Of a stretch of 64,000 bases of DNA, positions 9,001 to 11,860 are shown one piece after another (the first letter of the stretch is position 1; every line of letters begins with the position of its first letter). The notes beneath the pieces were generated by a model, which saw only the letters and a program-made list of their open reading frames with translations, made no database searches and was not told where the DNA came from. A program made the position numbers and the translations under genes. Source of the DNA: Ditylenchus dipsaci (Eukaryota > Nematoda > Chromadorea > Rhabditida > Anguinidae); NCBI GenBank assembly GCA_004194705.1, contig SADC01001344.1:248001-312000 (forward strand). The letters run 5' to 3'.

Positions 9001-11860
9001 TTTTTTACACAGAAAATCCTTTTTAAAATGAAAAAAATGCTGCCGAGATAACAGGAATTTGAAAAGTTGAGCGGGAAATGCAACACATTGTTATGCTACT
9101 ACCGTATTTCCTCTAACAACTCACCCTGCTCTAATAACTCACCCCCTCAACTTTGAGGGACTATATCTCAGCTCGGAACAAATATTTTGCAAAGCTGTTT
9201 ATTGCGTTTTCTTAATTCCCACGAGCTCTACCGATTCCAGTTTTTAAATTTAATATTTTCACCCAAAATCTCGAGATCGACCTCAAATTTTTCCAATTTT
9301 CAGCGATCCAAAAAATAACTCACCCGGGTGAGTTATTAGAGGAAATACGGTATTTCTAATTAATTCAATCAAGCTTTGATTCATTGTGTTTAATTTAGGT
9401 TAATCTGGGTAGGATCCAATACAAGCTTGACTATGATTTTCAACAGGGACAAGTAAAAATTTCGGAAAATATATAAAAACATTATATTTTTCAGTTGGCT
9501 GTGACTGTGATTCAAGCAGAAAATTTGCCTGGAATGGACATGTCTGGAACTTCTGGTATAATTTTTTTTTGTTACTAGTTGAATATGTGGATCTTGAAAG
9601 TGCACGATTATCATATCTATCAAGGTTCATATTTTAAAATCCTTATAGAAATAGAAAATAACTGTTTACTTTTTAACCGGCCCTATGTGACAGTGGGGTT
9701 TTTTGCCTTGGTCCCCTGTTGTTTTTCGGAACTATTTAGACTCAGGATCAGGTTGGGACGGGCTAAAACATATTTTAGACTCATGTTTAGTCTGTCCTAA
9801 TATACGCTGGCCTACTTTTGCCTAATCCTGAAAAATTACAATAAAAAACAACAGGGGGACCAAGGCAAAAACGCTCTCATTGCCACATAGAGCCTTTTAA
9901 GCTTTCTAAAAAAACCTTTTAAATAGGTCACTTTTCAGCCACAAAAAGCACTTTTTTAGCTTTTATTTTTTTAGCGATACTTATTATTAATATTTTTTAG
10001 ATCCTTATGTGAAGCTGTATTTATTGCCAGAGAAAAAAAGAAGGTTGAAACAAAGGTAGTCTCATTATATTAGAATTATTTTAGATTTTGAATTTTTTTA
10101 AATTTTAGGTTCACAGAAAGACGCTGAATCCAGTGTTTAACGAGACTTTCATTTTCAAAGTGAGTGTTTTGAAGTTGAAACTTAAATTGGGTGGTGGAAT
10201 TTACCACTGGTAATTGTTTTTTAACCACCACTTGTTGAAAAATGTTTAAAAAATCACTGGTTAAAAAATGGTGACTGCGAGACAATTACCATCGTAATCA
10301 CCAAGATTTTAAGTACCATGGTAATTATTTGCCTCCAGCAAAACACATACCAATTTTTCAAAGAACTGAAATTCTTAGTATGATAGTTTACTAATTTTGA
10401 CTAGGGATAATAATAGTGTAGTAATTCAGACAGTCTTTTGCCGCAATCGTTTTACAAGTCTAGTAAGAAAAATCGTAAGGATTGTGATTTCATCAGCCAT
10501 ATTTGAATACAGTTAACCCACTATAAACGAGCACCCAGAGCTCGGTCCTAAAAACTCTATTTCTCGATTAACAGGATAGGTTGTTTCCGATATACCTTAT
10601 TAATATACTTCTGCACAAGGTCATCAAGCATATTTTTTTGTCGGTCATTAAAATTATTATTATGTTGGTAGTTTGACTTATACCAATCTCAAATTTAAAA
10701 GAACCCATGATTAAACGGTCAAATACTGCAGATCTCCTGACTTAGCGTGGAAAAGCAATAATCGCACCAATCGCAATAATTACAGCACTGAAATTAAAAC
10801 AAATGTCTAATAAAATTTTATTTAAGGTTCCATTCAATGAGCTAGGCAGCAAAACTCTGGTTTTCTCCGTGTACGATTTCGATAGATTCAGCAAACATGA
10901 CCAAATCGGACAAGTGCTATTGGCTCTCGGCAAAATTGATTTGGGTCAAGTCATTGAAGAATGGAAGGACATTGGACCGCCACCGGATGACAAAGAAGCT
11001 GTAAGTATTTCTATCTGTTTACACATCTAACTTGCGTAGTCGGAACTAATAAATTATTTAATGAAAATATTTTTATTTTAGGAAAAAATTTGGGTGATAT
11101 TTGTTTCTCGTTGCGATATGTGCCAACTGCTGGAAAGCTCACTGTAGTCATATTGGAAGCTAAGAACCTTAAAAAGATGGACGTGGGTGGTCTTTCTGGT
11201 AAGTTAGTAGTGTTTTTTTTCATCTTAAAGAATACAATGTTTGTTCACAGATCCTTACGTGAAACTTGTTCTAATGCAAGGTGGAAAAAGGCTCAAGAAA
11301 AGAAAACTTCTATCAAAAAATGCACTCTCAATCGTAAGTCTCAAATTTCAATAAAAATCGCTTTCGAAAAATGACAGAATGACCCAAACTACCTTTGTTT
11401 CCATTTTCCTATCTAAAGAAGCCAAATCCAGTATTATCGTTTAGTTAAAATATTTTATTTCAGCCTACTACAACGAATCGTTTTCATTTGAAGTTCCATT
11501 TGAACAGATCCAGGTAATACTTTGTTCCTTGAATTATTAATTGTTTCTTTTAGTCTTAAAGTTAATTAATTAAAACAATTTTTTAAGAAGGTAACGCTTT
11601 TGATGACTGTCATGGACTACGATAAACTTGGCTCGAATGACGCTATTGGGAGATGTATTCTTGGGTGTTCTGCTGCAGGGGCTGAATTACGGCATTGGAT
11701 GGATATGTGAGTTTTATTTTGACATTTTTGCAAAAAACTGACACAACTATGTTTCAAAATCCAGGCTGGCCAGTCCCGACGTCCGATCGCTCAATGGCAC
11801 AAGCTAGAAGCTATGGAAGATGCAGACCCGGTACCAGCCGCTGCACCAGCTAAAGCCTAA
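3028..11860 (+). CDS. snt-1: Synaptotagmin-1 (SNT-1-like), 14 exons
   Basis: This is a synaptic-vesicle Ca2+ sensor for neurotransmitter release: an acidic luminal N-terminus, one membrane span, a basic linker, then C2A and C2B. Exons: 3028-3238 (starts MVKL), 7481-7702 (span, then RKLFGKKRHGEKNK), 8611-8650 (weakest call), 8891-8964 (HMEQNEKEQAEEK), 9399-9452, 9495-9555, 10001-10055, 10109-10159 and 10827-11000 (C2A: SDPYVK, VHRKTLNPVFNETFIFK, YDFDRFSKHDQIG), then 11082-11198, 11251-11333, 11464-11513, 11588-11706 and 11765-11860 (C2B: GDICFSLRYVPTAGKLTV, PYYNESFSFEVPFEQIQ, AELRHWMDM). The Ca2+-binding loop aspartates are present. Family matches are extensive and closest to nematode SNT-1. 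Splice phases agree only if single missing bases are allowed in exons 1, 4, 7, 10, 11 and 14, always in a homopolymer, so these look like sequencing errors and not decay. Intron 1 (4.2 kb) holds a palindrome and an LTR element. A short open stretch after exon 3, ending in TAG at 8775, could be an alternative 3' end. Confidence 0.93.
3340..4045. repeat. 0.7-kb palindrome with tandem 20-bp units in the arms
   Basis: The two arms are nearly perfect inverted copies centred at about 3630-3640. Outer arm parts carry tandem units of the type GTGAATCTGTGACAAAAAA (about four on the left, more on the right). Inner arms carry CACAGGGGGACCAAGC and GGGGGACCAAGG. The ends read AAAGGGCAA and TTGCCCTTT in a TTAA-rich context, like the TTAAAGGG family. 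ORFs inside are translations of the tandem units. It lies in synaptotagmin intron 1. Confidence 0.85.
4263..4440 (+). other. Possible orphan exon or gene fragment, unrecognised
   Basis: An open frame runs to a good donor (GGAA then GTAAGT) with coding-like composition. It includes CARCKFSKFGILRATSRGP and a lysine/aspartate-rich stretch ending IEKHGPG. I do not recognise a family. It could be an extra synaptotagmin exon, but no known synaptotagmin segment matches, or a captured fragment. The acceptor is unclear. The surrounding 4046-4934 otherwise shows only a CAGT...CTCG repeat fragment near 4655. Confidence 0.25.
4935..5098 (+). repeat. 5' LTR with TATA box and poly(A) signal
   Basis: The LTR contains TATATAAG at about 4993-5000 and AATAAA at about 5037-5042. 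This is the expected order for a promoter in U3 and a poly(A) signal in or near R. The bases just after it (TTGGCGTACTCGCAATGG) are the primer-binding-site position. The initiation codon at 5113 follows almost at once. Confidence 0.9.
5113..6909 (+). pseudogene. gag-protease remnant plus integrase tail of the LTR element
   Basis: The reading frame from 5113 begins with a glutamine-rich stretch and is cut by TAG at 5203-5205, where a glutamine codon is expected. It then runs open to 6366. It shows a gag-like helical region, two zinc knuckles (CFRCGKMHWSDDC, atypical, and CYQCNEFGHLKSQC, canonical CCHC) and the aspartic protease motif DTGAQPN. Near 6290 the protease continues in another frame (KKCALNLLGISALKALGF). 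A DDPVLGQVMECILNGW segment, typical of the region before integrase, is followed after about 6650 by a basic tail (RTVRRSARVPKQR) of integrase type. The enzyme cores between are absent, giving a deletion derivative with a frame change at the junction. Confidence 0.85.
6946..7109 (+). repeat. 3' LTR
   Basis: This is a direct repeat of 4935-5098, also 164 bp, with the same TATATAAG and AATAAA. Differences cluster near the 3' end (the segment after GCATTCG) plus one in the central ATATTG/TTATTG region. Confidence 0.9.
7240..7400. mobile_element. CCGTATTT-family MITE, copy A
   Basis: The element is flanked by TA, with left end TCGTATTTTCTTTATTAAGG and right end ATAGAGAAAATACGG. The constant inner phrase TTATTTTTCAACCCC follows the left end. 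It is a short copy of a ten-member family in this window. It lies just upstream of synaptotagmin exon 2. Confidence 0.8.
9100..9352. mobile_element. CCGTATTT-family MITE, copy B
   Basis: This 253-bp copy is TA-flanked with perfect ends CCGTATTTCCTCTAA and GGAAATACGG. Its private word AACTCACCC appears twice near the left end. Near the right end it recurs as the hairpin AACTCACCCGGGTGAGTT. It sits in a synaptotagmin intron. Confidence 0.85.
9678..9895. repeat. Foldback element with GGCTCTATGTG ends and CCTTGGTCCCC arms
   Basis: The left arm reads GGCCCTATGTGACAG then TTTTGCCTTGGTCCCCTG. The right arm reads CAGGGGGACCAAGGCAAAA then GCCACATAGAGCC. Between them is an inner inverted segment with GTCTGTCCTAATATACGC and TTTGCCTAATCC. 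It is in a synaptotagmin C2A intron. Confidence 0.75.

Follow-up and report, generated by a model that had tools for sequence, protein, structure and literature searches.

Matched terminal words in short elements of Ditylenchus dipsaci and their probable relation to Passer-type pogo transposases

A stretch of 64,000 nucleotides from the nematode Ditylenchus dipsaci (assembly GCA_004194705.1, contig SADC01001344.1, positions 248,001 to 312,000; hereafter the window) contains ten short elements whose ends carry a brief word that differs between copies and yet, within a copy, tends to recur at the two ends and in a small hairpin. What keeps such variable words matched within each copy? We found that the matching is a real, genome-wide feature, and that autonomous elements built on the same plan carry matching words together with transposases whose candidate recognition helices differ with the word. 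It is likely, on sequence evidence, that the elements are miniature inverted-repeat transposable elements (MITEs) of Passer-type pogo transposons, that the words are transposase-binding sites, and that several transposase/word "dialects" coexist in this genome. The elements, in window coordinates, are as follows (TIR, terminal inverted repeat).

9102..9350, + strand: element B, a MITE with word CTCACCC, flanked by TA at 9100-9101 and TA at 9351-9352
9102..9126, + strand: left TIR of element B, CCGTATTTCCTCTAACAACTCACCC
9129..9144, + strand: second box of element B, in the same direction as the first, CTCTAATAACTCACCC
9314..9350, - strand: right end of element B, right TIR plus two head-to-head boxes (hairpin)
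7241..7398, + strand: element A, decayed, word close to GAACC
21167..21613, + strand: element C, word TACACCA
27862..28093, + strand: element D, words AAGAGCCC and AAGCGCCC
33943..34192, + strand: element E, words decayed
37811..38044, + strand: element F, word GCGCCCC
49314..49543, + strand: element G, word GCGCCCC, right-end hairpin
60891..61115, + strand: element H, word AAGGCGGCC, decayed left outer end
61652..61893, + strand: element I, word AGAAGGCCC
63577..63658, + strand: element J, word AGAACCACA, 82 bp

In element B, CTCACCC stands at 9120, 9138 and 9319, with an inverted copy at 9326; its TIR has the form CCGTATTTCCTCTAA-YAACTCACCC, and its right end is a perfect head-to-head hairpin of AATAACTCACCC and GGGTGAGTTATT. 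A preliminary description of this DNA had reported ten TA-flanked elements with a common outer sequence, a common inner phrase and the word at three positions in each copy. All ten exist, except that element C lacks TA on its right flank, and the common sequences proved to be idealised. The exact outer 15-mer is present at both ends of only four elements (B, D, F and G), so that the shared outer sequence is a consensus (CCGTATTCTCTCTAA in C and J, CCGTATATTCTCTAT in I, with A and E diverging more), and the inner phrase is exact only in A; D, F, G, I and J have it within two mismatches, whereas B, C, E and H have no match at that threshold. Read by eye, the word matches clearly at all three positions in six elements (B, F, G, H, I and J) and imperfectly in two (C and D), while in A and E the match has decayed. 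Outer matches with up to three mismatches number 20 in the window, against 1.66 expected. A decayed relative at 58840-59041, outside the ten, has the outer sequence CCGTAAAAACTCTATTAA, nearer to the L130-type outer end.

Matching of words within elements

Across the 227 Mb genome we counted 6,968 occurrences (3,470 + 3,498) of the outer 15-mer and 0 of its backwards reading. We sampled 76 non-identical elements having both ends within two mismatches and 70-500 bp between them; six came from the window, four of whose ten elements fell outside this filter, and the others were the first places listed genome-wide, so that the sample leans to young copies because part of it was chosen for exact ends. 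The sampled elements are short (up to 500 bp by selection), TIR-bounded, TA-flanked (on both sides in 71 of 76) and multi-copy, as MITEs are; complete elements of 200-230 bp with exact ends number 75 across the genome.

Left and right words agreed at 6.88 of 8 positions within an element against 4.24 of 8 between elements, and the summed agreement of 523 exceeded the maximum of 367 reached over 2,000 permutations. The element's own word, with at most one mismatch, also recurred inside 50 of the 76, some copies being in the same direction (mean recurrence 1.07, compared with 0.10 when the word was foreign and 0.09 when its letters were shuffled). A hairpin of the own word at 5/6 or better was present in 67 of 76, compared with a mean of 27.5 and a maximum of 37 for foreign words in 300 shuffles; foreign words differing at three or more of six positions still matched at 5/6 in 331 of 2,516 tries because the words are alike in composition, and at 6/6 the contrast was 40 elements against a foreign mean of 6.4 and maximum of 13. 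Genome-wide, matched hairpins numbered 465 for GCGCCC/GCGCCC and 116 for CTCACC/CTCACC (near-perfect palindromes may be counted on both strands), and the two crossed combinations 0 and 0. These data bear out the covariation of words that had been proposed from the window: the copies do not share one ancestral word, and pairing within a copy is better than between copies.

Part of this matching could be mere inheritance, each subfamily descending from one element matched by chance and its words having no function. Copies within a subfamily do share their word by descent, and copy counts are therefore not event counts. However, BLAST of the inner parts placed 46 elements in one homology group (single linkage, which may connect weakly related bodies; aligned identity 69-98%), and this one group carries many words, among them AAGCGCCC, AACTCACC, ATAACCAC, AAGCGCGC, AGGAGCAC, ATAGCCCC and TGCCGCCC. 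Two of the sampled elements (L053 and L059) are 89.8% identical over 108 bp of body and carry CTCACC at both ends in one case and GAGCAC at both ends in the other. As described below, the boxes of autonomous relatives have also changed together, and their helices differ with the words, all of which makes a founder effect alone most unlikely.

The hairpin itself consists of two boxes placed head to head. Such a pair lies at exactly one end in 66 of the 76 elements, at both ends in one and at neither in nine; elements hold on average 3.2 sites with the exact core, and 226 of 246 such sites have ATA, ATT, AAA or TTA within 8 nt upstream. The second arm is, in many elements, a box of a different type, GAAAAATA-word, which accounts for the constant phrase, TATTTTTCAACC, that the preliminary description noted beside it. 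Cruciform formation, a purely structural reading, was rejected because boxes also stand in the same direction and the hairpin is mostly confined to one end.

Autonomous elements with the same plan of boxes

A Tc1-type (DDE_3) partner was rejected: in 30 of 84 matches looked at, with up to two mismatches and about 1.5 kb on each side, a transposase lay within CCGTATTTC ends at 0 of 30 loci. By contrast with the elements studied here, most of the Tc1-type elements L084-L113 of this genome have near-identical inverted repeats of their own, about 180-260 bp long and without word boxes. Larger CCGTATT elements (L024-L029) contained no stop-to-stop frame of more than 115 codons. DDE_1 (pogo) matches were plentiful, at least 181 with 150 of 437 candidates scored. 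The first six DDE_1 loci that we took proved to belong to CAGT-type pogo elements and not to partners; their box grammar is alike, with CAGTC... ends followed by repeated boxes such as CTCGATATAA-GACCACC. Among CAGT-type pogo elements of this genome, L114-L119 show repeated boxes with family words (CGACAC, GACCACC, GGACAC and CGTCCAC) and one end head to head; CENP-B_N is above cut-off in L117 and L119 and just under it in the L114/L115 family, and L115 has a DD30D arrangement.

We reached an autonomous element of the 2.2-kb class, at C80:237053-239292, by way of loci that have an identical DDE_1 score and include one near L017. The element has CCGTATTTCTTCTAATAGAACGACA ends with TA on both sides, short TIRs, and word boxes at both ends, five on the left and a head-to-head right end, the 25-bp end with its word being present at both ends. 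Its gene, with exons inferred by eye and all open, encodes a transposase with BrkDBD (5.9e-9), HTH_Tnp_Tc5 (1.6e-15) and DDE_1 (5.4e-18) matches and a DD35D arrangement (35 residues between the second and third D, the third D picked by eye). The C80 end with its word occurs at 37 places, and 8 of 13 facing pairs enclose listed transposase matches (on C80, C147, C184, C535, C1147, C1225, C1232 and C1248), which gives, for this one word, eight two-ended copies around a transposase; two of the other five pairs are about 250 bp apart, the size of a MITE. The transposase search found at least 178 matches with 90 of 1,753 candidates scored (listed identities 40-100%), so that absence from its list proves nothing. 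BrkDBD was above cut-off in the five relatives examined (L123, L126, L127, L132 and L133), and the Tc5-type domain of L126 and L127, scored on partial sequence, was just under it. The protein homologues with the most informative names belong to Caenorhabditis, Globodera, Strongyloides and Meloidogyne; some homologues are named "pogo transposable element with KRAB domain", a gene described as Passer-derived in the available part of PMC7386202.

The word core of 32 of the 76 sampled MITEs is also found at an autonomous element. The L123 and L130 cores occur in 0 of the 76, and the short L129 core has three matches, which may be chance. Autonomous left ends usually hold five boxes bearing the element's own word. 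In six families, with sites entered by hand and the L125 and L130 types left out, the five same-direction boxes were concordant within a family in 340 of 360 letter pairs, against a permutation mean of 199 and maximum of 263 in 10,000.

This concordance bears on an explanation that the preliminary description had raised together with hairpin-end processing, namely templated correction, in which hairpin arms or folded ends are copied from one another during replication or gap repair and a new word spreads without any reader protein. It is known that inverted arms can be copied onto each other; within copies the words do pair, and in the TGCCGCCC family the agreement of the two hairpin arms runs right through the lead. 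Yet boxes in the same direction have changed as well, and their surroundings in the autonomous elements differ (prefix 0.65, lead 0.66 and downstream 0.47 identical; core 1.00 by construction, one decayed L123 site being dropped here that was kept in the concordance count). Moreover, if copying within hairpins set the words, a TIR and its hairpin partner should agree through the 3-nt lead, but their agreement was 0.78, against 0.87 for opposite TIRs (20 versus 6 untied comparisons among 59 ends, p 0.009, kinship of copies not corrected). Nor does copying predict a helix that differs with the word. Templated correction is not needed, though it may still contribute in the TGCCGCCC family; as the main cause, we consider it unlikely, and hairpin-end processing fares no better.

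Alternatively, the boxes might be used by a different protein, encoded by the element or by the host, for example a factor that acts in transcription or against silencing. A precedent is the VANDAL/VANC system, where arrays of short family-specific motifs coevolved with a trans-acting protein, according to the available part of PMC5735166. Here, however, the word sits within the TIR itself, the three forward frames of the C80 element showed no conspicuous second gene, and the transposase has two DNA-binding domains of its own, which leaves this alternative very unlikely.

Candidate recognition helices and words

Thirteen left-end loci were fetched (L121-L133), and the word and the first helix-turn-helix (HTH) could be read in ten (L121, L123, L125, L126, L127, L129, L130, L131, L132 and L133), L130-L132 being near-identical copies. 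The unreadable ones were L124 (a broken L121-family copy), L128 (a decayed L129-family copy) and L122, without an end. In L122, which has an L123-type transposase, a GC-rich repeat (GCGGGAGTGCGG) replaces the expected left end and a word array lies about 2.8 kb upstream of the transposase. Across the ten loci, seven words pair with eight helix sequences of the first DNA-binding domain.

CGACA: helix ITRSTVIDW (L121)
CGGGCA: helix ISRGRVFEW (L123)
CGCACA: helix IARKRVID, stop at the helix tryptophan (L129)
GCGCCC(C): helix VDRKRVKDW (L127)
GCGCCC(C): helix VDRKRVREW (L125)
AAGCCC: helix VDRKDIREW (L126)
GAGCCCC: helix VDRATVRDW (L133)
GACCA: helix VQRVRIREW (L130-L132)

The L129-type word adjoins transposase matches on C70 (two places) and C421, among 76 places, and the L123-type array adjoins those on C1039 and C1304, among eight. 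The three closest families are 0.74-0.82 identical outside the helix and 0.50-0.60 in its 10 residues (the L129 stop scored as a mismatch). L127 and L126, whose words differ, are 0.68 identical outside the helix and 0.50 within it, whereas L127 and L125, which share a word, are 0.47 identical outside and 0.70 within. AlphaFold placed the variable residues 55-63 in predicted helix 3 (predicted local distance difference test scores of 88 and 76 for the block), and the two best folds in Foldseek, 2elh and 1hlv, one of them DNA-bound, are CENP-B-type domains, at E 0.05 and 0.16. Searching the PDB by sequence with the first HTH yielded no credible match. The GCGCCC-type helix, which closely resembles the most frequent helix among 96 homologues, goes with a word whose complement fits the Brinker site, GGCGYY in the available part of PMC3738585, since GGCGCT is contained in the backwards reading (GGGGCGCTT) of the commonest MITE word.

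Several observations weigh against a link of this kind between helix and word. It extends over only seven words and ten readable loci of related lineages, and the first DNA-binding domain differs outside the helix too; in most distant pairs the helix is conserved as well as, or better than, the rest of the domain. L125 and L126 have different words and yet share 7 of 10 helix residues (0.70, with 0.34 outside), and L129 and L127 both have KRV with different words. Of 120 homologues fetched, 96 extend over the domain, and VDRKR is the helix start most often seen in these; L125 and L127 may therefore each have kept the ancestral state, and their common word and helix may reflect common ancestry, not convergence. 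The Foldseek matches are weak, none reaching E 0.001. Finally, no partner was identified by core match for 44 of the 76 sampled MITEs, including CTCACCC of element B, so that the separate autonomous partners anticipated by the preliminary description were found for some words only. Its suggestion that words are matched to transposase variants is supported by what was found where partners exist: matching words and altered recognition helices.

Proposed mechanism and comparison with known systems

We propose that each transposase-bound box consists of the outer part joined to the variable word, the word being read by the N-terminal Brinker-type HTH, probably through its third helix, and the adjoining CTCTAATA or GAAAAATA half probably by the second HTH. 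Each element would present several such boxes, in many cases as a tandem series at one end and a head-to-head pair at the opposite one. A transposase working on its own word alone would keep the boxes of its element and of its MITEs matched and would mobilise only its own dialect; a change of the recognition helix in a lineage would be followed by a change of the boxes, and coexisting families of words would then be transposase/word dialects. More tentatively, and with some doubt, we suggest that one genome holds many mutually exclusive dialects that arose by repeated joint switches of about five dispersed boxes and a small number of helix residues, perhaps as an escape from MITE parasitism or host repression, and that across families they spell out a code, found in nature, by which Brinker-type helices recognise DNA.

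It is an old question how a DNA-binding protein can switch specificity if several of its sites have to change with it, and a series of outcomes appears to be present in this single genome, so far seven words with helices and further words without a known partner. Both the helix-to-word code and the isolation of dialects are directly testable, and dialects would explain why related MITE families that share one body keep distinct ends.

Elsewhere in the window, positions 3432-3837 form a long, near-perfect foldback of about 400 bp whose pairing continues past its ends (GTC...GAC), and positions 5206-6366 contain an open frame, a gag-like piece of a retroelement, that matches DUF7083, aspartyl protease and zinc knuckle domains.

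The kinds of element and domain involved are already known, and in the literature searched we found no description of such a dialect series, nor, among the papers listed, any earlier account of such words by title or abstract opening. CENP-B is a domesticated protein of satellite DNA with one kind of box, which sets it apart from the elements here. It resembles them in placing a related pogo-type N-terminal HTH on a DNA box (1hlv). The Passer family of the pogo superfamily is characterised in the available parts of PMC7386202 and PMC9976928 by BrkDBD, HTH_Tnp_Tc5 and DDE_1 domains, DD35D, a TA target site and short TIRs, all of which the C80 element likewise has; those parts describe short TIRs and make no mention of box arrays, a head-to-head end or multiple words and helices. 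The coral CMITEs also comprise MITE families with an inner region better conserved than the TIRs, but they are piggyBac-like, and the available part of their account reports neither a word repeated throughout the element nor a link to a helix (PMC2872659). CACTA elements have closely spaced direct and inverted subterminal repeats, and differ in belonging to another superfamily with a 3-bp target duplication, as far as the available part of PMC8978399 goes. The Arabidopsis VANDAL/VANC system is alike in its many-copy, short, family-specific motifs that coevolve with a trans-acting protein; there, in the available part of PMC5735166, VANC is an anti-silencing factor and the motifs are same-direction tandem arrays in non-coding regions, whereas the word in the present elements belongs to the TIR and is probably read by the transposase.

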